This document shows, piece by piece, positions 27,995 to 48,862 of a stretch of DNA of 64,000 bases. This stretch comes from Oricola sp. GTDB lineage: Bacteria; Pseudomonadota; Alphaproteobacteria; Rhizobiales; Rhizobiaceae. The DNA lies in NCBI RefSeq assembly GCF_022763245.1, contig NZ_JALEGV010000034.1:1-64000 (forward strand), given 5' to 3'. Below the pieces are notes generated by a model. That model searched no databases. It was not told the DNA's origin and saw only the letters and a list, made by a program, of their open reading frames with translations. Within the stretch, counting starts at the first letter, position 1, and the number at the start of each line of letters is the position of its first letter. The position numbers were made by a program, and so were the translations under genes.

Positions 27995-28914
27995 TGGATA
28001 TCGCGCAGAACGTCATTCTGACGATCATGACGGCAGCGACGCCGCTGCTCATCGCGGCCATCGGCGAACTCGTCGTGGAGCGCTCCGGCGTCCTCAATCT
28101 CGGCGTCGAAGGCATGATGGTGATCGGCGCCGTCTGCGGCTTCGCCGCCGCCATGATCACCGGTTCGCCCTGGATGGGCGTGGTGGGCGGCATCGTCGCG
28201 GGCGCGTTGCTCTCTCTGCTCTTCGGGTTCCTGACGCTCAGCCTCGCGACCAACCAGGTGGCGACCGGCCTGTCGCTGACCCTGCTCGGCATCGGCGTGT
28301 CCGGGCTGATCGGGGAGAGCTTCGTCGGCAAGGCCGGCATCCGCCTGCCCAGCCTCAACATTCCGGGCCTCACCGAGATCCCGCTCGTCGGCAAATTGCT
28401 GTTCGGCCAGGATCCGATCTTCTACCTGTCGATCCTGCTGACGGCCGGAACGACGTGGTTCCTGTTTCGCACGCGTGCGGGCCTGACGCTGCGTTCCATC
28501 GGCGACAATCACAAATCCGCCCATGCGCTCGGCATTCCGGTCATCGGCTATCGCTATCTCGCGGTGATGTTCGGCGGCGGCTGCGCCGGGCTCGCCGGCG
28601 CGCATCTGTCGCTCGTCTACACGCCGCAATGGGTGGAGAACATGACGGCCGGCCGCGGCTGGATCGCGCTCGCCCTGGTCGTCTTCGGCTCATGGCGTCC
28701 CTGGCGGGTTCTCGCCGGCGCCTATCTCTTCGGCGCGGTGACGATCGGCCAGTTGCACGCCCAGGCGCTCGGCTTCGGCATTCCGTCGCAACTGCTTTCT
28801 TCGCTGCCCTATCTGGCGACGATTGTGGTTCTCGTTCTAATCTCGCGCGACAGGCGCTTGACGATCATCAACACGCCCGCTTCCTTGGGCCAACCATTTG
28901 TGCCTGATCGATAA
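27994..28914 (+). CDS. ABC transporter permease 2, BMP/nucleoside-type
   Basis: The second membrane subunit (306 residues) carries the expected segments: LVVERSGVLNLGVEGMMVIGA near the N-terminus, FGFLTLSLATNQVATGLSL and RSIGDNHKSAHALGIPVIGY. ATG 27994 is preferred to GTG 27991 because GGAGA lies about 7 nt before it; both overlap the stop of permease 1. Eight or nine helices are evident. It works with permease 1 and the double ATPase to move the ligand delivered by the BMP-family lipoprotein-like binding protein downstream. Confidence 0.9.
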   Translation: MDIAQNVILTIMTAATPLLIAAIGELVVERSGVLNLGVEGMMVIGAVCGFAAAMITGSPWMGVVGGIVAGALLSLLFGFLTLSLATNQVATGLSLTLLGIGVSGLIGESFVGKAGIRLPSLNIPGLTEIPLVGKLLFGQDPIFYLSILLTAGTTWFLFRTRAGLTLRSIGDNHKSAHALGIPVIGYRYLAVMFGGGCAGLAGAHLSLVYTPQWVENMTAGRGWIALALVVFGSWRPWRVLAGAYLFGAVTIGQLHAQALGFGIPSQLLSSLPYLATIVVLVLISRDRRLTIINTPASLGQPFVPDR

Positions 28915-32908: not shown

Positions 32909-32911
32909 GGC

Positions 32912-34833: not shown

Positions 34834-35302
34834 GTTGGCTTTCCGTGGCTGTTGAACATCCGAATTGAGCATCGTTCGAAGCGGGTCGAACGGAATGAAC
34901 GGAAGTCAAACGCCTGGCGGACGGGGAGCGGGGACACTGCCGGAAAGACGTGGCCCGCGGAAGAATTTGCGAAACCCGGATGAAATTGTGCGCTGCACAC
35001 TCATGCTCTCAGACATAGACATCTGTTCACTTAATTCAACCGATTAGCGGGAAAAAGGTTCCCCGCATTGCAGCATTTTCTTTCGAACCCTTTGATTCCT
35101 TGGGCTGCCGGCGGATGAAACGTCTCGGCGAACGCACCACGGCCCGCTGCATCCCGCGCCCCGAAGCAACGCTCGCACGCCCCGCCGATTCGCACGTCCA
35201 CGCCCCGGAACCGGCCTCGGGTTGACGTCAGTCAATGTGAATTCGGGCGTTCTGTGATCAGTAGGTTGCTTTCGTGGAGCAAAGAGGGGGGAACCTGTCA
35301 CG
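34834..35302. promoter_or_regulatory. Divergent regulatory region of the gpsA operon and ppsA
   Basis: This 469-bp gap separates divergent operons and holds no supported gene. It contains GTGCGCTGCACA (34988-34999), an element with GTGC/GCAC arms that recurs at 58541, and near its right end the TTGA-N6-TCAA site for ppsA. I cannot assign the gpsA promoter with confidence, though one is expected in its left half. Confidence 0.45.
35222..35235. promoter_or_regulatory. FNR/FixK-type box upstream of ppsA (box A)
   Basis: The sequence TTGACGTCAGTCAA fits the FNR-family consensus TTGA-N6-TCAA. Its centre is about 74 nt before the ppsA ATG. It is one of six such sites near the FNR gene at 43283. 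In E. coli-type FNR promoters activation is typical when the site is centred near -41.5, which would place the start about 30 nt before the ATG. Confidence 0.7.
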
Positions 35303-37690
35303 ATGTCCAGTTCCGAGACCGTAATCTGGCTTGAAGATGCGAGCCGCAAGGATGTGCCCCGGGTCGGCGGCAAGAATGCCTCGTTGGGCGAAATGCTCAA
35401 CCAGCTCGGCTCGAAGGGCATCGCCGTGCCGTCCGGTTTCGCAACGACGTCGCAGGCCTACTGGCAGTTCCTGGAGGCCAACGACCTGATGGCCCGGATC
35501 GCCGAGGCGGTCGAGGAATATGTCGCCGGACACGTGACGCTGGCCGAAACGGGCGCGGCGGTTCGCAAGATGATCCTGCGCGGCACGTTTCCCGCCGACC
35601 TGGCGGCCGAGATCGGCGAGTTCTACCGCCAGATGTCGGCGAAGGCCGGCCGCGACGAGGTGGATGTCGCGGTGCGCTCAAGCGCCACGGCGGAAGATCT
35701 CCCCGACGCCAGCTTCGCCGGCCAGCAGGAAACCTATCTCAACATCAAGGGCGAGCGTGAACTGCTCGACGCCTGCAAGCGCTGCTTTGCGTCCCTGTTC
35801 ACCGACCGGGCGATCAGCTACCGGCAGGTGAAGGGCTTCGATCATCTGAAGGTGGCGCTCTCCATCGGCGTGCAGCTGATGGTCCGCTCCGACAAGGGCG
35901 GCTCGGGCGTGATGTTCTCCATCGACACCGAGACCGGCTTCGACAAGGTCGTGGTCATCAACGCGGCCTGGGGCCTCGGCGAGAACGTCGTTCAGGGCGC
36001 CGTCGATCCCGACGAATTCGTCGTGTTCAAGCCGCTGCTGGAAAGCGGTGAATACCGCCCGATCGTCGAGAAGAAGGTCGGCGCCAAGGGGATCAAGATG
36101 ATCTACTCCGAGGGCGCCGAAAAGACCCGCAACGTGCCGACCTCCAAGAAGGAGCGCGCGGCCTATGTGCTCTCGGAAGACGAGGTGCTGACGCTGGCCC
36201 GCTGGGCCGTGATCATCGAACAGCATTACGGCTGCCCGATGGACATGGAATGGGCGAAAGACGGCGACACCGGCGCGCTTTTCATCGTTCAGGCGCGTCC
36301 TGAAACCGTGCAGGCGCGCCGCGACCAGTCGTCCTTCAAATCCTACACCATCAAGTCCAAGGGCAAGGTCCTCACCAAGGGTCTGTCCATCGGCGGGTCC
36401 GTGATCGCCGGCCGCCTCTGCCTGATCGAGGACGTCGCCGACATCGACAAGTTCGTCGACGGCTCCATCCTGGTGACGGGCACGACCGACCCGGACTGGG
36501 TGCCGATCATGAAGCGCGCCGCCGGCATCATCACCGACCATGGCGGCCGCACCTCCCATGCGGCCATCGTCAGCCGCGAGCTCGGCGTTCCGGCGGTTGT
36601 CGGCACGGGCGAGGCGACGCACATCCTGCACAGCGAACAGGAAGTGACGCTGTCCTGCGCCGAGGGCGACGAGGGCTTCGTCTATGAAGGCTTCGCCGAA
36701 TACGAGGAAAAGACCGAGTCGCTCTCCGACATTCCGGCGACCCGCACCAAGGTCATGCTCAACATCGCCAATCCGGGTTCGGCCTTCCGCTGGTGGCAGA
36801 TCCCGACCGACGGCGTCGGTCTGGCGCGCATGGAATTCGTGATCAACAACCAGATCCAGGTCCATCCGATGGCGCTGATCCACTTCGATCAGGTGACGGA
36901 CGAGGCGGCGCGCGAGAAGATCAAGCAGCTGACCCGCGATTACGACGACAAGTCGGAATATTTCGTCGACAAGCTGGCGCGCGGCCTGGCCCGGATCGCC
37001 GCCACCGTCTACCCGAAGCCGGTCATCGTGCGCATGAGCGACTTCAAGACCAACGAATATGCGGGCCTTCTCGGTGGCGCCGGCTTCGAGCCGGCCGAGG
37101 AAAACCCGATGATCGGCTTCCGTGGCGCGTCGCGCTACTATTCGGAGGCCTATCGGGCGGGCTTCGCGCTGGAATGCCAGGCCATGGCGCGACTGCGCAA
37201 CGACATGGGCTTCGACAATGTGACGATGATGATCCCGTTCTGCCGCTCCGTCGGCGAGGCCGACAAGGTGCTCGAGGTGATGGCCGAAAACGGGCTGCAT
37301 CGCGGCGAGAACGGCCTGCTCGTCTATGTCATGTGCGAGATCCCGTCCAACGTGATCCTGGCCAAGGATTTCGCCTCGCGCTTCGACGGTTTCTCCATCG
37401 GCTCCAACGACCTGACACAGCTCACGCTGGGCGTCGATCGCGACTCCGACACGCTGTCCGGCCTGTTCGACGAACAGGATCCGGCCGTCAAATGGATGAT
37501 CTCCAACGTCATCCGCGAGGCGCATGCCGCCGGCGCGAAAGTCGGGCTGTGCGGACAGGCGCCGAGCGACCATCCGGAGTTCGCCGAGTTCCTGGTCGAA
37601 TGCGGAATCGACTCCATGTCGGTGACGCCGGACAGCTTCATCGCGGTCAAGAAACAGGTTGCCGCGGCGGAAGCCGCGCAGGCCAAATAG
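35303..37690 (+). CDS. ppsA: Phosphoenolpyruvate synthase (pyruvate, water dikinase)
   Basis: PpsA makes phosphoenolpyruvate from pyruvate and ATP, feeding gluconeogenesis. The 795-residue protein has the three expected domains. The N-terminal ATP-grasp part includes VGGKNASLGEMLNQL and AVRSSATAEDLPDASFAGQQ. The phosphohistidine swivel has TDHGGRTSHAAIVSRELG, with the catalytic His in TSHAAI. The PEP/pyruvate-binding barrel includes GFRGASRYYSEAYRAGF and IGSNDLTQLTLGVDRDS, and GLCGQAPSDHPEFAEFLV near the end. It is preceded by an FNR-type site and followed 118 bp later by pfkB. Control by an oxygen-responsive regulator is inferred from the site. Confidence 0.96.
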   Translation: MSSSETVIWLEDASRKDVPRVGGKNASLGEMLNQLGSKGIAVPSGFATTSQAYWQFLEANDLMARIAEAVEEYVAGHVTLAETGAAVRKMILRGTFPADLAAEIGEFYRQMSAKAGRDEVDVAVRSSATAEDLPDASFAGQQETYLNIKGERELLDACKRCFASLFTDRAISYRQVKGFDHLKVALSIGVQLMVRSDKGGSGVMFSIDTETGFDKVVVINAAWGLGENVVQGAVDPDEFVVFKPLLESGEYRPIVEKKVGAKGIKMIYSEGAEKTRNVPTSKKERAAYVLSEDEVLTLARWAVIIEQHYGCPMDMEWAKDGDTGALFIVQARPETVQARRDQSSFKSYTIKSKGKVLTKGLSIGGSVIAGRLCLIEDVADIDKFVDGSILVTGTTDPDWVPIMKRAAGIITDHGGRTSHAAIVSRELGVPAVVGTGEATHILHSEQEVTLSCAEGDEGFVYEGFAEYEEKTESLSDIPATRTKVMLNIANPGSAFRWWQIPTDGVGLARMEFVINNQIQVHPMALIHFDQVTDEAAREKIKQLTRDYDDKSEYFVDKLARGLARIAATVYPKPVIVRMSDFKTNEYAGLLGGAGFEPAEENPMIGFRGASRYYSEAYRAGFALECQAMARLRNDMGFDNVTMMIPFCRSVGEADKVLEVMAENGLHRGENGLLVYVMCEIPSNVILAKDFASRFDGFSIGSNDLTQLTLGVDRDSDTLSGLFDEQDPAVKWMISNVIREAHAAGAKVGLCGQAPSDHPEFAEFLVECGIDSMSVTPDSFIAVKKQVAAAEAAQAK

Positions 37691-37705
37691 GGCAACCCGG
37701 GACAG

Positions 37706-37739
37706 GCCGGCGGGCAGGGGACACAACCTGCCCGTCGGC
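37706..37739. other. Stable hairpin between ppsA and pfkB
   Basis: GCCGGCGGGCAGG (37706-37718) pairs with CCTGCCCGTCGGC (37727-37739), 13 bp with one G-T pair, across an 8-nt loop. No T-run follows, so it is a poor intrinsic terminator. It may be a processing or stabilising element that uncouples the levels of the two genes. Confidence 0.45.
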
Positions 37740-37807
37740 ATGGCATTCGGGTTGCGGATCGCGGCGCGACCTGACACCGTGGAGCCAGTGAGACTCCGAC
37801 GAGGAAA

Positions 37808-38755
37808 GTGGCAGCCGCCGTGGAACGCATCCTGACAATCGCCCTCAATCCCGCCATCGACGTGAGCTGCGACGCCGAGCACGTCCGCCCGACGCTGAAG
37901 ACGCGGACGATGAACCAGATGCACTACGCCGGCGGCGGCGGCGCCAATGTCGCCCGCGTCATCGCCGAACTCGGCGGCCGGGCGGAGCTGCTGTACTTCT
38001 CGGGCGGCTTCTCCGGCCCGCTCTACGACCGGCTTCTCGACGAATACGACATCGTCAAGCACCGCATCGAGATGGCCGGCTCCAACCGCATCGCGCTGAT
38101 GGTGCATGAACTGAGCACCAATTTCGAATATCGCTTCGTGCCGGAAGGCCCGACGATCGACCCGTACGAACTCGAGCCGGTGCACGATTTCATCGAGGCC
38201 TATGAAGGCGACTACATCATCGCCAGCGGCAGCCTGCCGCACGGCGCCCCCGCCGACACCTACAGCCGCATGGCCGACGTCGCCCAGCGCAAGGGCATCC
38301 GGTTCGTCCTCGACACCTCGGGCGAGGCCCTGCGCAACACGATCGACCACGCCGGCATCTTCCTCCTGAAGCCGAGCATGAGCGAACTGGAAAAGCTGGT
38401 CGGCGAGCGGCTCGACGAGAATTCGGCCTGCACGGTCGCCACGGACCTCGTCAAGCGCGGCGCGGCCGAGAACATCGCGCTCTCGATGGGCAAGTCAGGC
38501 GCGGTGCTGGTCAATGCCGAGGGCATCGTGCGCATGCGGTCGATCCACGTCCGCGAGGCGTCGGCGGTCGGCGCGGGCGACAGCTTCGTCGCCGGCATGG
38601 TCTTCTGGCTGACCCAGGGCCACACCGTCCACGAGGCCTTCCGCTTCGGCATCGCCGCCGGCTCGGCCGCGGTGATGACGCCGGGAACCGAACTCTGCCG
38701 CCGCGCCGACGTCTACGCCCTCTACGAGAACGGCGTCACCCGCGCCCACGGGTGA
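37808..38755 (+). CDS. pfkB: PfkB-family sugar-phosphate kinase (6-phosphofructokinase II-like)
   Basis: PfkB-type kinases phosphorylate fructose-6-phosphate or related sugars. The 315-residue protein opens ILTIALNPAIDVSCDAEHV, has the family Gly-Gly motif HYAGGGGANVARVIAELGG (about 39-57) and the C-terminal signature with catalytic Asp in SAVGAGDSFVAGMVFWL. The N-terminus is typical of the PfkB/LacC subgroup. The GTG at 37808 is close after GAGGAAA; GTG 37820 is an alternative. Read-through from ppsA would place it in the FNR regulon. PpsA and PfkB act in opposite directions of central metabolism, so post-transcriptional balance is likely. Other sugar-phosphate substrates, such as tagatose-6-phosphate, cannot be excluded. 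Confidence 0.87.
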   Translation: MAAAVERILTIALNPAIDVSCDAEHVRPTLKTRTMNQMHYAGGGGANVARVIAELGGRAELLYFSGGFSGPLYDRLLDEYDIVKHRIEMAGSNRIALMVHELSTNFEYRFVPEGPTIDPYELEPVHDFIEAYEGDYIIASGSLPHGAPADTYSRMADVAQRKGIRFVLDTSGEALRNTIDHAGIFLLKPSMSELEKLVGERLDENSACTVATDLVKRGAAENIALSMGKSGAVLVNAEGIVRMRSIHVREASAVGAGDSFVAGMVFWLTQGHTVHEAFRFGIAAGSAAVMTPGTELCRRADVYALYENGVTRAHG

Positions 38756-38770
38756 CGGCGGTTCCCGTCG

Positions 38771-39751
38771 TCAGACGGCACCATCCATCGGAAAGCGCTC
38801 CGACGTGGCGATCGCCGCGCCGCGCAATCCGGCGTCGTTGGCGAGGATCGCGTGCACCGGGATGGAGGCGAGGGCGTCCGACTTCGCGCCCTTGTTGGCG
38901 AAGAGCTCGCGGAAGCGGTCGCTGTCGAGGAGCGGCACGATCTTCGGTGTGATTCCGCGGCCGAGAAAGACGCCGCCCCGCGCGTCGTGCAGCAGCGCCA
39001 GGTCCCCGGCGACCCGCGCCATGATCGAAACGAAGCAGTCCAGCGTGTCGCGCGCCAGCGCGTCGTCGTCCTTCAACGCCAGATCGATGATCTCGCGCGC
39101 GTGCAGGCTCGGTTCGGGCAGGCCCTCCAGCTCCGAGAGCACCGAGTGGACGGTTTCCAGCCCGCGCCCCGACAGGACCGACTGGATCGGCGCGTATCCA
39201 TATTCGCCGGCGACTTTCGCAAGGATCGCCATCTCGCGCTCATTCGTCGCCGAAAACGCCATGTGGCCGGCGGAGCCGGCGATCGGCGTTTGCCTGCCGG
39301 AGGGACCGATCAGCATCGCCGACCCGAACTCGCCGCCCGTGCCCAGCACGATCATCGGCGCGCCGTCGACGGGCTCGCCCCCGTTGATCCGGCACCGGTC
39401 ATGCGCGTTGAGGAACGGCAGACACAGCGCCAGGGCCTCGAAATTGTTGACGAAATGGATCTTCTCGACGCCGCAGGCGCCCCGCACCTCCTCGGACGTG
39501 AAGCGCCAGGACGCGTTCTCGATGCCGATCCGGTCGCCGGTCAGCGGGTCGGCGACCGAGAAACCCGCGATATGCGGCCGGTCGGGAATGGCCTCCAGAT
39601 AGTGGGCCACCGCTTCGGGAAGCGAGGTGAACATCTTCGTCTCGAAGACGGCGAAATGCTTCACCGACAATTTGTCGATGTCGCAGATGGCGAAACGGGC
39701 ATGCGTTCCGCCGATGTCGCCAATGATCGCGCTGCGTTTGCTTGCTGGCAT
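38771..39751 (-). CDS. glk: Glucokinase (ROK-unrelated, Glk family)
   Basis: Glucokinase phosphorylates glucose to glucose-6-phosphate in the cytoplasm. The 326-residue product has the ATP-binding opening IIGDIGGTHARFAICDI, the sugar-binding segment HFVNNFEALALCLPFL and the phosphate loop VLGTGGEFGSAMLIG, near the usual GTGLG position. A YAPIQSVLSGRGLETV block and LHDARGGVFLGRGITPKIV at the C-terminus are also typical. I use ATG 39751 (MPASKRSAIIGD), preceded by GAGGAGCCC, and not the longer open frame to 39976. The divergent region to the phosphoribosyltransferase gene holds two FNR-type sites. GTGGEFG has an uncommon Glu-Phe in the loop. Confidence 0.9.
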   Translation of the reverse strand: MPASKRSAIIGDIGGTHARFAICDIDKLSVKHFAVFETKMFTSLPEAVAHYLEAIPDRPHIAGFSVADPLTGDRIGIENASWRFTSEEVRGACGVEKIHFVNNFEALALCLPFLNAHDRCRINGGEPVDGAPMIVLGTGGEFGSAMLIGPSGRQTPIAGSAGHMAFSATNEREMAILAKVAGEYGYAPIQSVLSGRGLETVHSVLSELEGLPEPSLHAREIIDLALKDDDALARDTLDCFVSIMARVAGDLALLHDARGGVFLGRGITPKIVPLLDSDRFRELFANKGAKSDALASIPVHAILANDAGLRGAAIATSERFPMDGAV

Positions 39752-39824
39752 CAGGTCGGGCTCCTCCGCCGTCTCGAACATCTCCCAAGGGACGACGATC
39801 CTACATGCAGGCCGGGTCCGCGTG

Positions 39825-39838
39825 TTGACGTCAATCAA
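39825..39838. promoter_or_regulatory. FNR/FixK-type box upstream of glk (box B)
   Basis: TTGACGTCAATCAA fits TTGA-N6-TCAA; its centre is 80 nt before the glk ATG on the minus strand. It lies 23 nt from the second site, in the same intergenic region. Confidence 0.68.
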
Positions 39839-39860
39839 CATTTTCATAACGCAGGCCGAT

Positions 39861-39874
39861 TTGACTGCCGTCAA
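39861..39874. promoter_or_regulatory. FNR/FixK-type box upstream of the phosphoribosyltransferase gene (box C)
   Basis: TTGACTGCCGTCAA fits TTGA-N6-TCAA; its centre is 56 nt before the ATG at 39924. Boxes B and C are 36 nt apart centre to centre and probably serve the two divergent genes separately. Confidence 0.7.
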
Positions 39875-39923
39875 TGCATGGAGGGCTGCGCAAAACCATC
39901 CTGACCGGCGGGAGGATCGGCGC

Positions 39924-40580
39924 ATGCTGTTTCTTGATCGCGAGGATGCCGGGCGCAAACTGGCGGAACTACTCAAGGGCCGGGATTACGGCGACGCCGT
40001 GGTCGTCGCGCTTCCGCGCGGCGGCGTTCCGCTCGGCGCGGTCGTGGCCGACGCGCTGAACCTGCCGCTCGACGTGATCCTGGTGCGCAAGGTCGGCGCG
40101 CCGTCCCAGCCCGAACTGGCGCTCGGCGCGGTGACGGACGGCGACACCATGAAGCTCACCGTCAACAGGGAGATCCAGGCCGAACTGGGCCTGACCGACG
40201 AGGACGTCGAAGATCTGGCCCGTGCGCAACTGCCGGAAATCGAGCGCCGGCGAGCGAGCTACTATAAGGGTCGCGCGCCCGTGCCACTCGCCGGAAAGAC
40301 CGTGATCGTCGTCGACGACGGCGTGGCGACCGGAGCGACGCTCAATTCCGCCCTGCGCCTTATCCGCGGCGAAAGACCCTCCCGGCTGATCCTCGCTCTG
40401 CCCGTCGCCCCGCGCGACACGCTCGAACGCCTGCGGGAGCACGCCGACGAGGTCGTCTGCCTCCACGCGCCGTCGCCCTTCCTGGCGGTCGGCGCGCATT
40501 ACGCGGATTTCTCGCAGGTGAGCGACGAAGAGGTGGTGCGATGCCTTGAGCGCGCCCGAAATCTTGACGGCGGTCAATGA
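39924..40580 (+). CDS. Phosphoribosyltransferase-fold protein (COG1926 type)
   Basis: The 218-residue protein has a type I phosphoribosyltransferase fold. The PRPP-binding motif VIVVDDGVATGATLNSALRL is at about residues 131-150, and AVVVALPRGGVPLGAVVADAL with RKVGAPSQPELALGAV are the flanking family segments. Homologs are often called predicted phosphoribosyltransferases and are found with stress genes in several bacteria, but the nucleobase or other substrate is not known. The ATG at 39924 follows GCGGGAGGATC. The last codons contain the next FNR box. A homologous domain occurs in the DosR dormancy regulon of Mycobacterium, a parallel I find notable. Confidence 0.85.
   Translation: MLFLDREDAGRKLAELLKGRDYGDAVVVALPRGGVPLGAVVADALNLPLDVILVRKVGAPSQPELALGAVTDGDTMKLTVNREIQAELGLTDEDVEDLARAQLPEIERRRASYYKGRAPVPLAGKTVIVVDDGVATGATLNSALRLIRGERPSRLILALPVAPRDTLERLREHADEVVCLHAPSPFLAVGAHYADFSQVSDEEVVRCLERARNLDGGQ
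40564..40577. promoter_or_regulatory. FNR/FixK-type box upstream of the polymer-domain protein gene (box D)
   Basis: TTGACGGCGGTCAA lies within the last codons of the phosphoribosyltransferase gene. Its centre is 73-74 nt before the ATG at 40644, the same distance as at ppsA. CTCTAGGGT about 30 nt downstream could serve as a -10 element. Confidence 0.68.
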
Positions 40581-40643
40581 TCCGCGCCCGCGCGCCTCTA
40601 GGGTGAATGCGATACCGATCTTGCCGCAACACGGGAGCACGCC

Positions 40644-41831
40644 ATGAGCCTGCAAATGACGGTACGCATGTCAGCGATCCTCGCCTTCGTCCTCCTGTCG
40701 GTCGCCGCGCCCCGCGCGCAGCAGACCTATGGCGGCGACGTCTACGAATCCGGCGCCAACGCCTCGATCACGGCGACGGCCGCGCGCGACGCCTTCGTCG
40801 CCGGCTTCTCCGCCCAACTGGACGGGAACATCGGCGGCGACGGCCATGCGGCCGGCTTCGACGTCGATGTCGACGGCACGATCGGCTCGGACCTCTATGC
40901 GAGCGGCGCCACGGTCACGGTCGGCGGGCCGGTGGGCGAGGACGTCACCGTCATGGGCGCGACCGTCCGCCTGCGCCGGTCCTCGTCGGTCGGCGGCAAT
41001 GCGCGGCTGATGGGCGGCTCGGTCACGGTCGAGGCGCCGATTGCCGGCAGCCTGGTGGCGAGCGGCGGCACCATCCGCCTCGATGCGCCCGTCGATGGCG
41101 ATGCGGCGCTGAATGGCGGCGACCTGATCTTCGGAGACGGCGCCCGCATCGCCGGAACGCTGACCTATTCCGGCCCTGAACAGATCGACATTCCGGCCTC
41201 TGTCGCCGCGCCCGAACGGGTGCGTTTCGTGAAGACCGACGCCTGGAGCGCGATGGACGACTGGCGCGAGATCGCCGAGGGTTCGCGGCGCAGCCTGCTG
41301 CCGACGCTGTTCGGCAAGATCGCCGCTTTCGCGGTGACGCTCGCCTTCCTGCTGGTGATTGCCGCCCTGTTCCTCACCGTCGCGCCGGCAACGGTCGAGT
41401 CGGGCCGGCGACGGATCGTCGAGAGACCCGGCGCGACGTTTCTGGCGGGCTTCCTCACGCTTTCCGCCCTGTTCGGCCTCGTTCCGGTCAGCGCGATGAC
41501 GCTCGTCGGCATTCCGCTGATCCCGATCGTCGTCCTGTTGATCGTCCTTGGCTGGACCTTCGCATACGTGCTTGGCGCCTATGCGCTGTCGTTGCGCGTC
41601 GCGACCGCCTTCTGGGAGGTGTCGGAATCCACCGTGGCGCAATTGCTGGTGCTCGCTGTCGGCCTCCTCGTGCTGGCCGTTTTGAACTTCATCCCGATTG
41701 CCGGATGGCTGGTCAACTTCACCATCGTCCTGCTCGGTCTCGGCGCGATTGTCCGGCTGCTGACCGGCTGGATGGCGGGGACGCCCCGGCAGCACCTCGC
41801 GGAGACGCCGGCAGATGCGCCCGCGGCATGA
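40644..41831 (+). CDS. Exported polymer-domain (bactofilin-like repeat) membrane protein, unknown function
   Basis: The 395-residue protein begins with a signal peptide (about residues 1-25, ending APRAQQ). It is followed by a beta-helix-like region (residues about 28-185) of short repeats rich in Gly, Asp and Val, such as VYESGANASIT, AAGFDVDVDGTIGSDLY and GGSVTVEAPIAGSLVASGG. This is the pattern of polymer-forming proteins. The C-terminal half has about four transmembrane helices in pairs (FAVTLAFLLVIAALFLTVA, FLAGFLTLSALFGLVPV and so on). I do not recognise a named function. An FNR-type site and GGGAGCACGCC precede the ATG. Association with the L,D-transpeptidase gene just downstream suggests a cell-envelope role. 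Confidence 0.75.
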   Translation: MSLQMTVRMSAILAFVLLSVAAPRAQQTYGGDVYESGANASITATAARDAFVAGFSAQLDGNIGGDGHAAGFDVDVDGTIGSDLYASGATVTVGGPVGEDVTVMGATVRLRRSSSVGGNARLMGGSVTVEAPIAGSLVASGGTIRLDAPVDGDAALNGGDLIFGDGARIAGTLTYSGPEQIDIPASVAAPERVRFVKTDAWSAMDDWREIAEGSRRSLLPTLFGKIAAFAVTLAFLLVIAALFLTVAPATVESGRRRIVERPGATFLAGFLTLSALFGLVPVSAMTLVGIPLIPIVVLLIVLGWTFAYVLGAYALSLRVATAFWEVSESTVAQLLVLAVGLLVLAVLNFIPIAGWLVNFTIVLLGLGAIVRLLTGWMAGTPRQHLAETPADAPAA

Positions 41832-41867
41832 GCATCCGCGGGTGAATTCCCGCCGACACGCACCGTG

Positions 41868-42317
41868 ATGCACAATCTGCGCGCCTTCCTCCTGTCCCTG
41901 CTGCTGGCCCTGTCGGCCGGCGGGGCTCTCCTTGCCGCCCCGGCGGCAGCCCGTGCGGAGCGCGTCACGGTGGATATCGACCTGTCGGACCAGCAGATGA
42001 CCGTCCGCGCCGATGGCCGCATCCTCTACCGCTGGCCGGTTTCGACCGCGCGCCCCGGCTACCGGACACCGGTCGGGACCTATCATCCCTATCGGCTGGA
42101 ACGGGAGTGGTATTCGACGATCTACGATTACGCCCCGATGCCCTGGTCGATCTTCTTCTTGCGGGGATACGCCATCCACGGCACGACCGATCTCGCCCAT
42201 CTGGGCCAGCCCGCCTCGCATGGCTGCGTGCGCCTGCATCCCGACAACGCGAAGGCGCTGTTCGATCTCGTGCGCAGCGTGGGCATGCGCGAGAGCCTGA
42301 TCGTCATCCGGCCATGA
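41868..42317 (+). CDS. L,D-transpeptidase (YkuD family)
   Basis: YkuD-type enzymes make 3-3 cross-links in peptidoglycan or anchor proteins to it, and are often induced when growth slows. The 149-residue protein has a signal peptide (about 1-28) and the catalytic motif YAIHGTTDLAHLGQPASHGCVRLHPDN (written here as key residues H in AIHG, S-H-G-C-V-R in SHGCVR). I use ATG 41868; a GTG at 41865 directly precedes it. No clear ribosome binding site is seen. It lies 36 bp after the polymer-domain gene, so they are probably co-transcribed from the FNR-type promoter. Its 3' end overlaps the USP gene on the other strand by 14 bp. Confidence 0.88.
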   Translation: MHNLRAFLLSLLLALSAGGALLAAPAAARAERVTVDIDLSDQQMTVRADGRILYRWPVSTARPGYRTPVGTYHPYRLEREWYSTIYDYAPMPWSIFFLRGYAIHGTTDLAHLGQPASHGCVRLHPDNAKALFDLVRSVGMRESLIVIRP

Positions 42318-43125
42318 GGCGGTTGAGGTCGGACTGCATCAGCAGCGTGTAGGTGAAGCCGCCGAAGGCGCGCTCGCGCATGCGGCTGTGCCCGTAGGCG
42401 CCCGTCACCACCAGGTCCGCATGCTCGGCGCGCACTGCGGCGACGAAGGCGTTCGGCGAACTGTCGTGCTCGATGATCCGCGCCTCGGCCTCGACACCGT
42501 GGCGCAACAGGTAGCGCACGACATCCTGCGGACCCGACGCGTCGGCCCGGTTTCGCGCGTCGCCGGCCGCCAGCACGAGGGTGGTCTTCGCCAACCTCAG
42601 ATAGGGCAGGGCGAACATCACCGCCCGCCGTGCCTGGGGCGTGTCCTTCCATCCGACGACGGCCAGACGGGGAGGGCGGAAGGCGGCGTTCTCGCCGACG
42701 AACAGCACCGGCCGGCCGGCATTGCAGACGAGTTCGCCCGGATCGACCGAGCGATAGGCGTCGCCGCTGGAAGCGCCGTGCGGCGTCCCCGAGATGATCA
42801 GATCGGCGGCGCGCGCGTGGATCAGCAACGCCTTGGTCGGCAGGTCCTGAGACTGCCGCCAGGCCGAATACTGGCCGTCGCCCGCGACCGCCATGAACTG
42901 CTGCCGCAGTTCCTCGAAACGGTGCGTGTTCTGCGCCATCGCGTCGCTGCGATAGAGTTCGTCGATGGCGACCCCCATCTCGCTGACATGCAGCGGACGC
43001 AGGCCCGTCGCGGCGAAACCGATGAGATAGGCGTCGATCTCGCCGGCCAGATCGGCTGCATAATGAAGGCGGGATTCGGAATTCCCGTCGAATTCGAGAT
43101 GCGCCAGAATGCTCTCGTAGGACAT
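42304..43125 (-). CDS. Universal stress protein, two tandem USP domains
   Basis: The 273-residue protein has two Usp domains. The first (about 1-140) is degenerate and opens MSYESILAHLEFDG. The second (about 150-273) has the nucleotide-binding G-2x-G-9x-G motif in VTGAYGHSRMRERAFGGFT. USPs bind ATP or AMP and appear in starvation, hypoxia and dormancy programmes. An FNR-type site is centred 65 nt before the ATG at 43125, and AGGCCGAGATGTCC precedes the ATG. I start there because the upstream frame (to 43197) is unlikely. It is divergent from the FNR gene, with a shared site. Confidence 0.9.
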   Translation of the reverse strand: MSYESILAHLEFDGNSESRLHYAADLAGEIDAYLIGFAATGLRPLHVSEMGVAIDELYRSDAMAQNTHRFEELRQQFMAVAGDGQYSAWRQSQDLPTKALLIHARAADLIISGTPHGASSGDAYRSVDPGELVCNAGRPVLFVGENAAFRPPRLAVVGWKDTPQARRAVMFALPYLRLAKTTLVLAAGDARNRADASGPQDVVRYLLRHGVEAEARIIEHDSSPNAFVAAVRAEHADLVVTGAYGHSRMRERAFGGFTYTLLMQSDLNRLMAG

Positions 43126-43183
43126 CTCGGCCTCCCCGACGCGTGTCTGATCGCCGAGTCTCGCGCAACCAGCCGTATCGGCA

Positions 43184-43197
43184 TTGATGCCGGTCAA
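43184..43197. promoter_or_regulatory. FNR/FixK-type box between the USP gene and the FNR gene (box E)
   Basis: TTGATGCCGGTCAA is 65 nt from the USP ATG (minus strand) and 92 nt from the FNR ATG (plus strand), measured from the centre. It could activate the USP gene, autoregulate the FNR gene, or do both. Confidence 0.7.
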
Positions 43198-43282
43198 TCA
43201 GCGCCGGACGCCGTTTTTCATTTGTTTGACATTGCGCGCATGGAATGATGTCGTGGCCAGATCGTTTTCCGGATGGGGCAGC

Positions 43283-44065
43283 ATGAACGACGCCGCTTTC
43301 ACTCACGGCAGTTGCAAGAAGTGCGACACGTGCGCGATCCATCAGCGCTCGTTCTGCCGCGCGGCGTCGGACGAGGTGCTGAACGAGCTGTCGCGCATTT
43401 CCCATCTGCGGGAATACGAGAAGGGCCAGGTCATCGTCGCCCAGGGCGACGACGCCGAGATCGTCGGCAACGTCGTCAGCGGGATCGTGAAATTGACCAA
43501 CATGTCGATGTCCGGTCAGCAGAACATCGTCGGGCTCCTGTTTCCCTCGGACTTCTTCGGCCGCGCCTTCTCCGACGAATCGCGATTCTCCTACGAGGCC
43601 GCCACCGACGTGACCCTGTGTTGCATGAGCCGTCACGCCTTCGAGACCTTCGTCGTCCGGCATCCCGAGGTCGAACACGAACTGCTCCTGACCATCCTCG
43701 ACGAACTCGACGCCACGCGCGAATGGACGGCCATGACCTCGTGCCACACGACCATGCAGCGCGTCGCGACGTTCCTGTTCATCCTGTCGAGGCGGTCGGA
43801 CGGCGTCTTCTGCGATCCGTCCTCGCGCACGCGGCTTCCCCGGCCGATCATCGCGCTGCCCATCGGCCGCCGCGACATCGCTGCCTACCTCGGCACCACG
43901 CCGGAAACGTTGAGCCGCAACATTCAGACGCTGGTGCGCCAGAACATCATCCGGTCCCTCGACACCAACCATTTCGAGGTGGTCGACATGCCCGGCCTGA
44001 TCGACCGCACGGGCGAAACGCGCGAAGACCTCGAATCCATGTCCGGCGCGGAGCCGCTGAGGTGA
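43283..44065 (+). CDS. fnrL: FNR/FnrL-type Crp-family oxygen-responsive regulator
   Basis: The 260-residue protein has a cyclic-nucleotide-like sensor domain and a helix-turn-helix. The N-terminal cysteines CKKCDTCAIHQRSFC (C11, C14, C17, C25) include the C-x2-C-x7-C spacing of FnrL/FnrN proteins that hold an oxygen-labile [4Fe-4S] cluster. Cys113 or Cys114 can be the fourth ligand. The recognition helix has E208, S211 and R212 (TTPETLSRN), the same spacing as E209, S212 and R213 in E. coli FNR, which read TTGA half-sites. The ATG at 43283 follows GGATGGGGC. The frame from 43184 is an artefact of an open upstream region. It is the obvious candidate to bind the six local sites, as an active dimer under low oxygen. 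Confidence 0.92.
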   Translation: MNDAAFTHGSCKKCDTCAIHQRSFCRAASDEVLNELSRISHLREYEKGQVIVAQGDDAEIVGNVVSGIVKLTNMSMSGQQNIVGLLFPSDFFGRAFSDESRFSYEAATDVTLCCMSRHAFETFVVRHPEVEHELLLTILDELDATREWTAMTSCHTTMQRVATFLFILSRRSDGVFCDPSSRTRLPRPIIALPIGRRDIAAYLGTTPETLSRNIQTLVRQNIIRSLDTNHFEVVDMPGLIDRTGETREDLESMSGAEPLR

Positions 44066-44072
44066 AACGCCG

Positions 44073-45116
44073 GTGATCCCGCAGACGCCACTGGCCCTGA
44101 CCGCATTGCTGTTCCTGGCCGGTGCGGCGGGTGTCTGGTTCAGCGGCGGGCGTCTGGTGGCCTATGCCGACGAGATCGCCGACCGCCTGCGCATCGGTCG
44201 GGCGATGATGGGTTTCGTCTTTCTCGCAACGGCGACCTCGCTTCCCGAAATCGTCACCACGGCCATCGCCGCTGGCGGCGGCGAGGCGCCTCTGGCGCTC
44301 GGCAACCTGCTCGGCGGCGTCACCCTGCAATTCGCGATGCTGGCGATCGCCGACGGCTTCGCCCGCCACGCGGCGATCACCTCCTTTCCGCGCAAGACCA
44401 CAGTCGCGCTGGAGGGCGTGGCGCTGGCCTTCCTGCTCGCGCTGCTCCTCGCCGCCCTCACTTTGGGCGAACGGACCCTGCTGTTCCAGGTCGGCATCGG
44501 CGCGACCCTTCTCGGGCTCGTCTACGCGGCGACACTCGGCGTCCTGCGCCGGCACGACGCGGCCGATCCCTGGACGCCGGTCCATGTGCCGGAACAGGCC
44601 GAGGCGGAAGAGGAGAGCGTCTTCGTCAGCAGCTTTCCGCATCTCGGCACCACGACGCTCAACCTGCGCTTCCTGTTGCTGAGCGCCGCCATCCTGATCT
44701 CGGCCACGGTCACTGTGATCATGGCCGAGCGGCTTGCCGACCAGACCGGTCTCGGCACCGGGTTGATCGGCGTCACGCTGCTGGCCGGCGTGACCTCGCT
44801 TCCCGAATTGAGCACGACCGTCGCTTCGGTGCGCATCGGCGCCTACACGATGGCGATCTCGAACATCTTCGGCAGCAACCTCCTGATGCTCGGCCTCGTC
44901 TGGCCGGCCGACATCCTCTACCGAAAGGGCCCGATCCTCGCCGAATTCGAGCCGGTCCTCCAGCTCTCGCTGGTCTCGGGCCTGATTGTCACGATCGTCT
45001 ATCTCGGCGGCCTGTTGCTGCGCAGTCGCCGGTCTCTGTTCGGCTTCGGCATCGACTCGCTGGTCGTGCTCGGCGTGTTCGCCTCGACCATGGTCCTCTA
45101 CTGGGTCAGCGGCTGA
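44073..45116 (+). CDS. Sodium/calcium exchanger-family (CaCA) antiporter
   Basis: The 347-residue protein is a CaCA-superfamily cation antiporter, which moves Ca2+ out against Na+ or H+. Ten or eleven helices contain the two alpha-repeats: FLATATSLPEIVTTAIAAGG followed by GNLLGG (repeat 1), and LLAGVTSLPELSTTVASVR followed by SNIFGSNLLML (repeat 2). Thr, Ser, Pro and Glu positions match the transport-site pattern. It starts with GTG 44073, 7 bp after the FNR gene on the same strand, so it is probably co-transcribed with the regulator. The cytoplasmic loop in the middle is rich in Glu (EQAEAEEES). Ion specificity is not certain. Confidence 0.88.
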   Translation: MIPQTPLALTALLFLAGAAGVWFSGGRLVAYADEIADRLRIGRAMMGFVFLATATSLPEIVTTAIAAGGGEAPLALGNLLGGVTLQFAMLAIADGFARHAAITSFPRKTTVALEGVALAFLLALLLAALTLGERTLLFQVGIGATLLGLVYAATLGVLRRHDAADPWTPVHVPEQAEAEEESVFVSSFPHLGTTTLNLRFLLLSAAILISATVTVIMAERLADQTGLGTGLIGVTLLAGVTSLPELSTTVASVRIGAYTMAISNIFGSNLLMLGLVWPADILYRKGPILAEFEPVLQLSLVSGLIVTIVYLGGLLLRSRRSLFGFGIDSLVVLGVFASTMVLYWVSG

Positions 45117-45120
45117 GCGC

Positions 45121-47826
45121 TCAGCGGTGCCGACGGCGCATCCGGACGATGAACGCGCTGGCCTCGCGCAGGATCACCGGCACGACGCTCAGGCCCAGCA
45201 GGGCAAGCCAGACGTCGCTTGGCAGTTGCACCAGGTGGAGCGCGCTTGCCAGCATCGGCTGCAGGTCCGCGACGGCGAGGATCGCGATGCACAGAGCGAT
45301 CGCCATCCAGACATAGCTGTTGCGGGTCACCTGGCTGGTGAACAGCATGTCGCGCCAGTTGCGCATGTTGAACACATGCCACAGCTGGGCGAGCGCCAGC
45401 GTGTAGAAACACATCGTGGTGACGGCGTCGCCTTCCAGCCCGAACACCGTCGTCGCCAGTCCCAGCGCCAGCAACGTCACCGCCGCGATGATGGATCCGT
45501 GGGTGACGATCGCGACCCATTGGGCGCGCGCAAGGATCGGTTCGGACGGCGGGCGCGGGGGCCGCGAAAGAACGTTGCGATCCGCCTCGACGGTCCCGAG
45601 CGCGAAGGCCGGGAAGACGTCCGTGACGAGGTTCAAGAACAGGATCTGCAGGGGCAGGAGCGGCAGCGGAAGTCCGCTCATCACCGCGATGCCGACGATC
45701 AGGATCTCGCTCAGGTTGCACGAGAGGAGATAGGTCGTGAACCGCCGGATGTTCGTGTAGATCAGCCGGCCTTCGCGCACCGCGTGGATGATCGTCGGGA
45801 AGGCGTCGTCGCGCAGCACAAGCGCCGCGGCCTCGCGCGCCACCTGCGTCCCGCGCAGCCCCATCGCCACGCCGATATCCGCCTTGCGCAGCGCCGGCGC
45901 GTCGTTGACGCCGTCGCCGGTCATCGCGACCACTTCGCCGGCCTCCTGGTGCAGGCGGATCAGGTCGAGCTTCTGTTCCGGGTTCACCCGCGCGAACACC
46001 CGTGCCTTGCGCGCGGTGGCGCGCTCCTCCGCCGTCATCTCGTCATAGGGCTTCAGGTCGCGCCCCTCGATCACGGTGGACCCCTCGGCGGCGAGCCCGA
46101 CCGACTTCGAGATGTGGTTGGCCGTGGCCGCATGGTCGCCGGTCACCATCACCACCGAGATGCCGGCCCGCTTCGCGTCGGCGATCGCGCCCGAAATGTC
46201 CGAACGCGGCGGATCCTGGAAGCCGACGACCCCGTAAAGCGTCAGCCCGTCATAGACGGCGTCAGGCTCCGCATCGGCCTCCTTGCCGGCGATGGCGAGC
46301 AGGCGAAGCCCCTGCAGGGCGAGAACCTCGCACACCCGCGCCCAGTGCCGCCGCTGGTCGCGGTCGAAGGGCCGCCTGCCATGACCTTCATCGACATCGA
46401 CATCGACGACACGCTCCAACACCGCCTCCGGCGCGCCTTTCACCGCAACGAGGAACCGCTCGCCCTCCTGATGCACGGTCGCCATCATGCGTGTGTTGTT
46501 GTCGAAGGCGTGCTCGGCAAGCTCGGGACAGGTCAGGAGCAGGTCATGGCGGTCGAAACCGCCGGCCGAAGCGACTTCGAGCAAGGCGACCTCCATCGGA
46601 TCGCCCGCCGCGGTCTCGCCGTCGCGTCCGCGTGACGCGTTGTTGCACAGGGTCGCGGCGCGCAACAGATGCCCGGCGGCGTCGCCCGGATCGGGCTGCA
46701 CCGGCCGCGCATCGCGGATGAAGGCGCGGGCCTCGCGGTCGAATGTGATTTCGCCGCTCGCCGTGACCAGGCGATCCACATGCATGCGGTTTTCGGTCAG
46801 CGTGCCGGTCTTGTCCGTCAGGATGACGGTCGTCGCGCCCAGCGTCTCGACGGCGGACAATTGCTCGATCAGGGCGTTGTGCCGGGCCATGCGCAGCATG
46901 CCGCGCGCGAGTGCCAGCGTCGCGACGATCGGCAGGCCTTCCGGAATGGCCGCGACAGCCAGCGCGACGGCGGATTCCACCATCAGCACGAGGTCCTGTC
47001 CGGCGAGGACCCCGCTCAGGGCCACGATCGCGGTCACGCCCAGTGTCAGCCAGATGAGATGGCGGCTGAGGCGCGTGAGCTGGCGCTCCAGCGGTGACCG
47101 TTCGGGCTCGGCCTCTTCGACCAGCCGCGTGATCCGGCCGAGCTCGGTGTTCATGCCCGTCCCGGTGACGACGGCTTCGCCCGTGCCGCCCGTGACCGCG
47201 CAGCCCTTGAACAGCATCGAGGTGCGGTCGGCCAGAATGGCGTCCGCCGCGACGGCCCGTTCCGACTTTGAGACCGGCAGGGATTCGCCCGTCAGCGCCG
47301 ATTCGTCGACCGAGAGGTTCGCGGACGCGATCACCCGCATGTCGGCTGCGATCACGTCGCCCGCATCGATGACGACGACGTCTCCCGGAACCAGTTGCTC
47401 CGCCGATACGGCGACCACCGTCCCGTCCCGACGCACGAGCGCCGAGCGGCCCGTCAGTTCCCGAAGCGCCTCCATTGAGCGCACTGCCTGGATTTCCGTC
47501 GTGAAGCCGATGGCGGCGTTGATGAGTAGGACGGCGACGATGGCGACGAACTCGACCGTCTCGCCGAGCAGCAGGGCGAGAGCCGCGGCGGCGACGAGGA
47601 GGTAGACGATCGGGCTCTGGAACTGACTGATCAGGACGACGAGGAAGCTCGTCTTCGCCTTCTTGCGCAGCTCGTTTGGCCCGTAGGCTTCGAGCCGTCG
47701 GGCGGCTTCGTCATGCGAAAGGCCGCGCCCCGGCTCGACGTCGAGAGCCGACAGCAGCGCGCCATGTTCCATCGCGTGCGGTGCGTCCGGCAGCGGGGCG
47801 ACAGCGGTTTCGGAGACGGAAGCCAT
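45121..47826 (-). CDS. Cation-translocating P-type ATPase, Ca2+-type (P2A-like)
   Basis: The 901-residue enzyme is a membrane ATPase of the SERCA-like P2 group. Landmarks in order are: the N-terminal cation ATPase domain (LEAYGPNELRKK), actuator loop ALTGESLPVSK, phosphorylation motif VILTDKTGTLTENRM (about residue 345), nucleotide-binding KGAPE (AVKGAPEAVLE), hinge motif MTGDGVNDAPALRKADIGVAMG, and the C-terminal cation-ATPase region (six helices total at the end). The IPEGLP sequence of helix 4 (AAIPEGLPIVATLAL) is typical of Ca2+ and Na+/K+ pumps. It is convergent with the antiporter (4 bp gap). A similar P-type pump, CtpF, belongs to the mycobacterial DosR regulon. Confidence 0.93.
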   Translation of the reverse strand: MASVSETAVAPLPDAPHAMEHGALLSALDVEPGRGLSHDEAARRLEAYGPNELRKKAKTSFLVVLISQFQSPIVYLLVAAAALALLLGETVEFVAIVAVLLINAAIGFTTEIQAVRSMEALRELTGRSALVRRDGTVVAVSAEQLVPGDVVVIDAGDVIAADMRVIASANLSVDESALTGESLPVSKSERAVAADAILADRTSMLFKGCAVTGGTGEAVVTGTGMNTELGRITRLVEEAEPERSPLERQLTRLSRHLIWLTLGVTAIVALSGVLAGQDLVLMVESAVALAVAAIPEGLPIVATLALARGMLRMARHNALIEQLSAVETLGATTVILTDKTGTLTENRMHVDRLVTASGEITFDREARAFIRDARPVQPDPGDAAGHLLRAATLCNNASRGRDGETAAGDPMEVALLEVASAGGFDRHDLLLTCPELAEHAFDNNTRMMATVHQEGERFLVAVKGAPEAVLERVVDVDVDEGHGRRPFDRDQRRHWARVCEVLALQGLRLLAIAGKEADAEPDAVYDGLTLYGVVGFQDPPRSDISGAIADAKRAGISVVMVTGDHAATANHISKSVGLAAEGSTVIEGRDLKPYDEMTAEERATARKARVFARVNPEQKLDLIRLHQEAGEVVAMTGDGVNDAPALRKADIGVAMGLRGTQVAREAAALVLRDDAFPTIIHAVREGRLIYTNIRRFTTYLLSCNLSEILIVGIAVMSGLPLPLLPLQILFLNLVTDVFPAFALGTVEADRNVLSRPPRPPSEPILARAQWVAIVTHGSIIAAVTLLALGLATTVFGLEGDAVTTMCFYTLALAQLWHVFNMRNWRDMLFTSQVTRNSYVWMAIALCIAILAVADLQPMLASALHLVQLPSDVWLALLGLSVVPVILREASAFIVRMRRRHR

Positions 47827-47891
47827 GTTGCGTTCGCCCTGCTACGTGTCTTCCGCCATCCTTGCGGGACGTCTGTCGCAGACTCCGCCGG

Positions 47892-48728
47892 TCAATGCGC
47901 CATGAAGATCGGAAAGCCCGAACTGGCAAGCAGATCCCGCGTCGCGCCACCGAAAAGGAACTCGCGCAGACGCGAATGCCCGTAGGCGCCGGCGACGATC
48001 ATGTCGGCGGAGATGTCGGTCGCATGCTGGATCAGCACATCGGCGACGTTCCGGCCGGCGGACGGCAGCAGGTCGACGGTCACACTGGCGCCATGGCGCG
48101 CCAGATAGGCCGCGATGTCGCTTCCGGGCTCTTCGCCCTGGTCGAATTCCGAGGCGAGGGGATCGACGATCACGACGCGCACATCCGTCGTCTCGTCCAG
48201 CATGCCGAGCGCGTCATAGACGGCGCTCGCGGCTTCACGCGTCCCGTTCCAGGCGATCATCACGCGCTTCGGCTTGAGCGAAACGGACACACCGTCGGGA
48301 ACGACGAGGAAGGGCCGGGCGCTCTGGTAGACGAAACCGCCCAAGGCCTTGTCGGCCAACTGCTTGTCCTGGTCCTGCGTCGGCATGTAAAGGCCGAGAT
48401 CGGTATAGCGCGCGCGCATCCCGACAATGTCCGGGATCTGACCTTCGTCGCAGTAATACGACGCCACGTCGCCGGAAATGCCGGCCTCGGCGATCATCGC
48501 CTCGATCGCGGCCGCCTTGTCGGCCGCAGCCGCGCGGCCACGCTCGCGTTCTTCCGACCATGTGTCGGCCGGAACCGCGCCATAGGCGGTGGCGCTCGCC
48601 GGGATCGAAATGCCGATCACCAGCACGGCGAGGTGACAGCCGGCCTCCTGGCTGATCGCGATCGCCCTGGCGATGCCATCGGTGGATTGTCCGCTGCCCG
48701 TCACCGTGAAGAGAGTCTTGGAAACCAT
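47892..48728 (-). CDS. Universal stress protein, two tandem USP domains (second copy)
   Basis: The 278-residue protein is paralogous to the USP at 42304: two domains, with the ATP-binding-type motif GAYGHSRLREFLFGGATRD near the C-terminus and the same degenerate first domain (LFTVTGSGQSTDGIARAIAI). FMAH ends the chain. It lies 65 bp upstream of the P-type ATPase gene on the same strand, so the two are probably one operon. An FNR-type site is centred 127 nt before the ATG. The ATG at 48728 follows a moderate purine stretch (GAAAGGTGGC). Confidence 0.9.
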   Translation of the reverse strand: MVSKTLFTVTGSGQSTDGIARAIAISQEAGCHLAVLVIGISIPASATAYGAVPADTWSEERERGRAAAADKAAAIEAMIAEAGISGDVASYYCDEGQIPDIVGMRARYTDLGLYMPTQDQDKQLADKALGGFVYQSARPFLVVPDGVSVSLKPKRVMIAWNGTREAASAVYDALGMLDETTDVRVVIVDPLASEFDQGEEPGSDIAAYLARHGASVTVDLLPSAGRNVADVLIQHATDISADMIVAGAYGHSRLREFLFGGATRDLLASSGFPIFMAH

Positions 48729-48848
48729 GTCATGCCACCTTTCTGGCCTTGGCGATCACTGCCTGCCTGCCGGCATTTCTGACAGCAAGCGCCCGCGGCG
48801 CGCAAGCCGCTGCATTTCGCAACATCGACATTGCGCGACCGGCACGCC

Positions 48849-48862
48849 TTGATGCCGATCAA
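48849..48862. promoter_or_regulatory. FNR/FixK-type box upstream of the second USP gene (box F)
   Basis: TTGATGCCGATCAA fits TTGA-N6-TCAA. Its centre is 127 nt from the USP ATG (48728), further than the other sites, so a longer leader is expected. The gene on the other side (CoxG-like, 48918) points the same way and ends here, so the site most likely serves the USP / P-ATPase operon. Confidence 0.62.

Follow-up and report, generated by a model that had tools for sequence, protein, structure and literature searches.

A dense cluster of putative FNR-type activator sites in a predicted low-oxygen energy and stress block of Oricola sp.

A stretch of 64,000 nucleotides from Oricola sp. (contig NZ_JALEGV010000034.1, positions 1 to 64,000; hereafter the window) carries six perfect TTGA-N6-TCAA palindromes around a gene for an FNR-type regulator, here called FNR2 (gene fnr). 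A sequence-only reading had interpreted them as a local FNR regulon, which raises the questions whether these boxes are functional, which genes they serve, and which regulator reads them. In our assessment they are quite probably what they resemble, namely putative sites from which FNR-type dimers activate a low-oxygen energy and stress block, mostly from a predicted class II position; their reader would be not FNR2 alone, and one of the proposed targets, fnr itself, is doubtful.

All six exact palindromes were confirmed at 35222, 39825, 39861, 40564, 43184, and 48849. The window total is seven, since a further exact match at 28858 had been overlooked in a by-eye check described as not exhaustive; no exact site was found between 48863 and 64000 of the window or in C11:64000-83999 of the same genome. 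The chance expectation per window was 0.41 sites from dinucleotide shuffles (maximum of 3 in 100 shuffles) and 0.21 sites from base composition. Genome-wide (5.63 Mb, 45 contigs), 82 sites were counted versus 14 for a reversed-pattern control, and five congeneric genomes likewise showed an excess, with 49-92 sites versus 12-20 for the reversed control. The six sites span 13,641 bp and form the sole dense cluster of the genome; the best stretch elsewhere contains 2, so that a comparable box density was not seen outside the block. With the contigs joined as one line, uniform placement of 82 sites gave a cluster of six in 5 of 20,000 placements (0.00025). Shuffles, base composition, and genomic clustering thus agree that six sites in one block are far above chance. 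Such sites also occur beyond this block, with 75 of the 82 outside the window.

The first box (35222..35235, +) is located upstream of ppsA, encoding phosphoenolpyruvate (PEP) synthase (35303..37690, +; NF005057 and TIGR01418 above cut-off), followed by a gene for a PfkB-family hexose kinase (37808..38755, +; TIGR03168 above cut-off). Two boxes in tandem separate the glucokinase gene glk (38771..39751, -; PF02685) from a divergent gene for a phosphoribosyltransferase-domain protein (PRT; 39924..40580, +; PF00156), a glk-proximal one at 39825..39838, without assigned orientation, and one upstream of PRT at 39861..39874 (+). The site at 40564..40577 (+) overlaps the 3′ end of PRT and precedes genes for a membrane protein without Pfam match (40644..41831, +) and an L,D-transpeptidase (YkuD; 41865..42317, +; PF03734). 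The box at 43184..43197 (-) lies between usp1, encoding a universal stress protein (42304..43125, -; PF00582), and fnr (43283..44065, +), behind which a Na/Ca exchanger family protein is encoded (44073..45116, +; PF01699). The last box (48849..48862, -) stands upstream of usp2, for a second universal stress protein (47892..48728, -; PF00582), and of a P-type ATPase gene (45121..47826, -) whose product matches a calcium PMR1-type model best, below the equivalog cut-off. From box centre to start codon we measured 74 nt for ppsA, 80 nt for glk (from 39825), 56 nt for PRT (from 39861), 65 nt for usp1, 92 nt for fnr, 127 nt for usp2, and, by subtraction, 73.5 nt for the gene at 40644, which reproduces the previously given range of 56-128 nt.

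For comparison, the corresponding blocks of four congeners with FNR2 (L066-L069) and one without it (L138, genome G002) were used; the nearest named records of FNR2 belong to O. indica, O. nitratireducens, and an 'Ahrensia' metagenome-assembled genome (MAG). An exact site is kept at 18 of the 19 orthologous positions before ppsA, glk/PRT, usp1/fnr, and usp2 in these five congeners (22 of 23 including the window), so the boxes are conserved before orthologous genes as in an FNR regulon. The box is exact upstream of ppsA in four of the five, with 7 of 8 bases kept in L069 as the sole exception, upstream of usp2 in all five, and in the usp1/fnr divergon in all four that have it; a single glk-upstream box is present in 5/5, and in two of them usp1 replaces PRT opposite glk at the shared box. 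In a box-anchored alignment, identity was 0.54 in the N6 spacer compared to 0.31-0.33 in distant flanks, the near-total identity of the core being partly by construction because the boxes served as anchors. No exact site was detected in 94 kb of upstream flank in the five congeners, a stretch that shares no more than a few kb with the block loci. What stands of the earlier proposal is that ppsA(-pfkB), glk/PRT, usp1/fnr, and usp2(-P-ATPase) are preceded by FNR-type sites on which selection acts.

Two of the six sites have no such backing. The tandem pair 39825/39861 was not seen in the five congeners, which have a single box there, and the membrane protein gene at 40644 was not found in their blocks. 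Thus, the sites 39825 and 40564 are unsupported by orthologs. The seventh match (28858..28871, unoriented) falls within the 3′-terminal part of an open reading frame for an ABC permease and is probably due to chance. It was rejected as a regulon member, as the box is absent in three relatives despite 77-90% conservation of the permease; in this check, genome G004 offered only a cut permease stretch (70% over 132 aa) and G002 no permease match. A chance or compositional origin of the sites as a whole would accommodate these three individually unsupported matches, yet the shuffles, the reversed control, the ortholog conservation, and the pooled -10 spacing described below make it highly improbable.

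For promoter geometry, 23 exact sites and a further one that keeps 7 of 8 bases, 24 in total, were read toward ppsA, PRT, glk, usp1, and usp2. Behind the box, base preference was low apart from positions +1 to +3 (T, G, C), +24 (A), and +28 (T). A box centred at -41.5 places +1 to +3 in the -35 region, and +24 and +28 then correspond to bases 2 and 6 of the -10 element. A score for T, A, and T of a -10 element peaked at offset 23 with a mean of 1.54 of 3 (next 1.08), a value matched in 0 of 2000 block shifts, and with one ortholog drawn per target offset 23 was best in 3361 of 5000 draws. Offset 23 also came out on top for 9 related sites that directly follow FNR2 in Hoeflea and a relative, the one in L086 preceding an arginine-deiminase-family gene, and for 11 ppsA promoters from other genera (1.27, next 0.82). 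By target, the score at offset 23 was 1.83 for ppsA and usp2, 1.75 for PRT, 1.2 for usp1, and 0.67 for glk. The -10-like signal would fit class II activation from a site near -41.5 and is carried by ppsA, PRT, and usp2; it is weaker for usp1 and absent for glk.

Several observations weigh against this geometry or limit its reach. The glk score of 0.67 of 3 at class II spacing equals background, offset 23 gives a score of 0 for the usp1 and glk sites of the window itself, and site 40564 reaches 0 of 3. Four Hoeflea PRT sites peak at offset 22, and two core sites read three ways (ccoN, hemerythrin, fixG) average 0.67 at offset 23. Moreover, orthologous sites are not independent data, and at divergons the orientation of a site was assigned to the nearest gene. 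An extended motif specific for FNR2, nGC directly after the box, was also considered and dropped: G in 22/23 and C in 20/23 sites seemed specific, but ccoN and fixG share nGC, which falls on the -35 region and is read as promoter sequence.

The box between usp1 and fnr had been assigned to both genes. Read in fnr direction, it scores 1.0 of 3 at offset 23 with a top offset of 47; this score hardly separates fnr from usp1 (1.2), which speaks against a clear assignment. The flank is more distinctive, with GC at +2/+3 in 5/5 cases on the usp1 side versus 0/5 on the fnr side, and the box is probably oriented to usp1. For fnr, a promoter TTGACA-17-TGTCGT is predicted at 43226..43254 (+). All five Oricola fnr genes have a -35 element TTGACA (one TTGACT), followed after 17 bases by TGTCGT or TGTCCT (one TGGTTT), and the distance from the box centre to the first base of this -35 varies between 35.5 and 87.5 bases. 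We infer that expression of fnr does not rely on the divergon box; its autoregulation via this box is not supported and appears doubtful.

FNR2 consists of a cNMP-like sensor domain (PF00027) and a Crp helix-turn-helix domain (PF13545), the recognition helix of which (TPETLSRN) matches E-x2-S-R. With C14, C17, C25, and C113 it has the three N-terminal cysteines plus the central one of an FNR, and C11 in addition. Nevertheless, it is no ortholog of canonical FnrN/FnrL: in a 50-row tree, FNR2 groups with proteins of Oricola, Notoacmeibacter, and Hoeflea (17 rows, support 96/73) and lies outside the canonical clade (14 rows, 100/100), which contains a second regulator from its own genome as well as the FnrN of G002; against the NCBIfam FnrL equivalog NF045989 it reaches 192.7 bits, below the threshold of >300. 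In the FNR2 clade, C11, C25, and C113 are present in 17/17 rows, C14 in 12, and C17 in 16, and either C14 or C17 was lost in 6 of 17 (C14 in five, C17 in one). The 14 canonical FnrN rows keep C14, C17, and C25 and lack C11. In alignment, C11 of FNR2 falls close to the first N-terminal cysteine of A. fischeri FNR, a position that E. coli FNR is not known to require. The AlphaFold model of FNR2 (pLDDT 75.7) matches FNR 5e44 (TMq 0.71), FixK2 4i2o (0.64), and many Crp chains equally well; with residues 1-21 below 50, the N-terminus was too uncertain and the derivation of a cysteine geometry was dropped. One FNR2-like copy from a Hoeflea MAG (L093), left out of the tree rows, has 188 residues to the first stop near a contig edge, lacks C11, C14, and C25, and is possibly decaying. 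Relatives of FNR2 in Roseovarius (L094-L097) have E-x2-C-R in place of E-x2-S-R, with exact boxes nearby, and one congener encodes a further FNR-type protein, 41% identical (L070, G001:C60).

The canonical FnrN of the window's genome is encoded on contig C9 beside a radical SAM protein, which we take to be hemN-like, a hemerythrin, COX1/FixO/FixP, and FixG; boxes are found in this neighbourhood before the cbb3 oxidase genes and fixG. More than one such regulator per genome has been described elsewhere, with three FNR-group proteins in Hoeflea phototrophica (PMC2908626) and two fnr-like genes in the Sphingopyxis granuli genome (PMC7713065); FnrN/FixK networks of Rhizobiales are covered in PMC4999443.

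Whether FNR2 or FnrN reads the block can be addressed with G002, which has no FNR2 ortholog and nonetheless exact sites before ppsA, glk/PRT, and usp2; usp1 was not found in its block. Therefore, FNR2 is not the only regulator on which the sites depend, and the exclusivity implied by a local FNR regulon was not borne out. Besides a canonical FnrN (L055), G002 has one other, weak match to FNR2 (1e-5), and FnrN is the likely reader there. The persistence of three site groups in this genome, the E-x2-S-R helix common to FNR2 and FnrN, and the description of FNR, FixK, and DNR as recognizing very similar sequences (PMC2908626) would also suit FnrN as the main reader in the window's genome, with FNR2 as an accessory and the block as part of one genome-wide FNR network. 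We rate this possibility only slightly below even, since in Hoeflea FNR2 is accompanied by boxed genes even though the same 20-kb loci yielded no ppsA, glk, or usp, which suggests that FNR2 has targets of its own. For the window's genome we consider that both regulators, FNR2 and FnrN, probably read the sites.

A third possible reader is a Crp/Fnr relative without cysteines, of the FixK or DNR type, in which case the signal would be a cascade or nitric oxide (NO) and oxygen would not act directly. The gene at C32:44638 of the same genome is a candidate, as its product has the E-x2-S-R helix and no N-terminal cysteine motif and two boxes lie upstream; with two cysteine-bearing FNRs present, one of them inside the block, a simpler reader exists and this alternative is unlikely. 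The two boxes (G000:C32:44026 and 44163; L148 8027, 8164) may mark this gene as a second regulator fed by FNR.

Starting from the sites, their clustering and conservation, the pooled -10 spacing, the regulator family, and the presence of a second regulator, all read from the DNA, we infer oxygen as the signal, activation, independence of fnr from its box, and a division of labour between the regulators. On this view, a fall in oxygen would lead an FNR-type regulator (FNR2, very probably also FnrN) to bind about 41.5 bp before the start points. It would thereby activate ppsA(-pfkB), PRT, and usp2(-P-ATPase), with usp1 as a probable and glk as a possible further target. The sensor would be present before the oxygen drop, since FNR2 would be made from its own box-independent promoter.

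Beyond the genus, ppsA was detected at an E-value of 1e-200 or better in 38 of 249 genomes of the order. Thirty ppsA loci were covered (G002 plus sets of three and 26; 11 further ppsA rows lacked a locus), and 12 of them (11/29 outside the genus) have an exact box within 400 bp of ppsA, compared to 0/30 for the reversed control. Some of the 30 loci neighbour FNR-type, usp, pfkB, PRT, or P-ATPase genes. More distant relatives of the regulator were covered by 18 loci, which contain 33 boxes and no match to the reversed control. A general association is countered by the 18 of 30 ppsA loci without an exact box and by four loci (L081, L089, L093, L098) where regulator relatives are present and no box was found. 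Four Hoeflea loci (L083, L086, L087, L092) have FNR2 next to PRT and/or YkuD genes, as judged by tblastn. In one of these (L086), FNR2 lies downstream of a cbb (RuBisCO) operon and upstream of an arginine-deiminase-family gene, with a box in between.

A close counterpart is the FixK2 system of Bradyrhizobium. In B. diazoefficiens, ppsA (blr4655) and the usp gene bll4644, which have nearby locus numbers, carry TTGA-N6-TCAA boxes and are down in a fixK2 mutant, and ppsA is cited as a FixK2 target validated by in vitro transcription (PMC9104804). Microoxia raises PEP synthase, glucokinase (blr4658), a PfkB-type kinase (blr4659), and usp, the two kinase genes lying close by (PMC6515984). Not in line with this, PMC6515984 marks none of ppsA, glk, the pfkB-type gene, and usp as FixK2 targets, while PMC9104804 lists ppsA. 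The systems differ in that FixK2 has no Fe-S cysteines and is induced by FixLJ, whereas the Oricola block contains an FNR-type gene. The box is also identical to that of the FnrL/FnrN core regulon of Alphaproteobacteria (uspA, ccoNOQP, hemN, fnrL), of which uspA and fnrL are under direct control in Rhodobacter (PMC2908626, PMC4634722); in contrast to this core, the Oricola block includes ppsA, pfkB, and glk. It is well supported that the block is a variation on control already demonstrated in soybean rhizobia and nothing new in kind. Marine relatives of the rhizobia would thereby be added to the range of FNR/FixK-type control over PEP synthase and stress proteins, here with PfkB and glucokinase encoded alongside. 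Two natural contrasts are on offer, as one congener lacks the local FNR and one FNR lineage has changed at usual cluster-ligand positions.

The freshest detail is the shifting cysteines of FNR2. The mycobacterial DosR hypoxia regulon can be compared here as an analogy only, DosR being an unrelated two-component regulator with an unrelated binding site; CtpF is the Ca-ATPase of this regulon. In content it is similar, with PfkB, a phosphoribosyltransferase, universal stress proteins, and stimulated Ca-ATPase activity (PMC5309233). As a tentative proposal of rather low probability, FNR2 could be a second, distinct oxygen sensor with its cluster held by a re-assigned cysteine set (C11 with C14 or C17, C25, and C113) and with a different oxygen or NO range than FnrN, dedicated to a quiescence-like block comparable to that of DosR.

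Adjoining the FNR-box block, the window encodes at 31394-34872 (-) a glucosylglycerol-phosphate synthase (TIGR02398 above cut-off), a HAD phosphatase, and a glycerol-3-phosphate dehydrogenase, likely a compatible-solute set, which is kept in three congeners.

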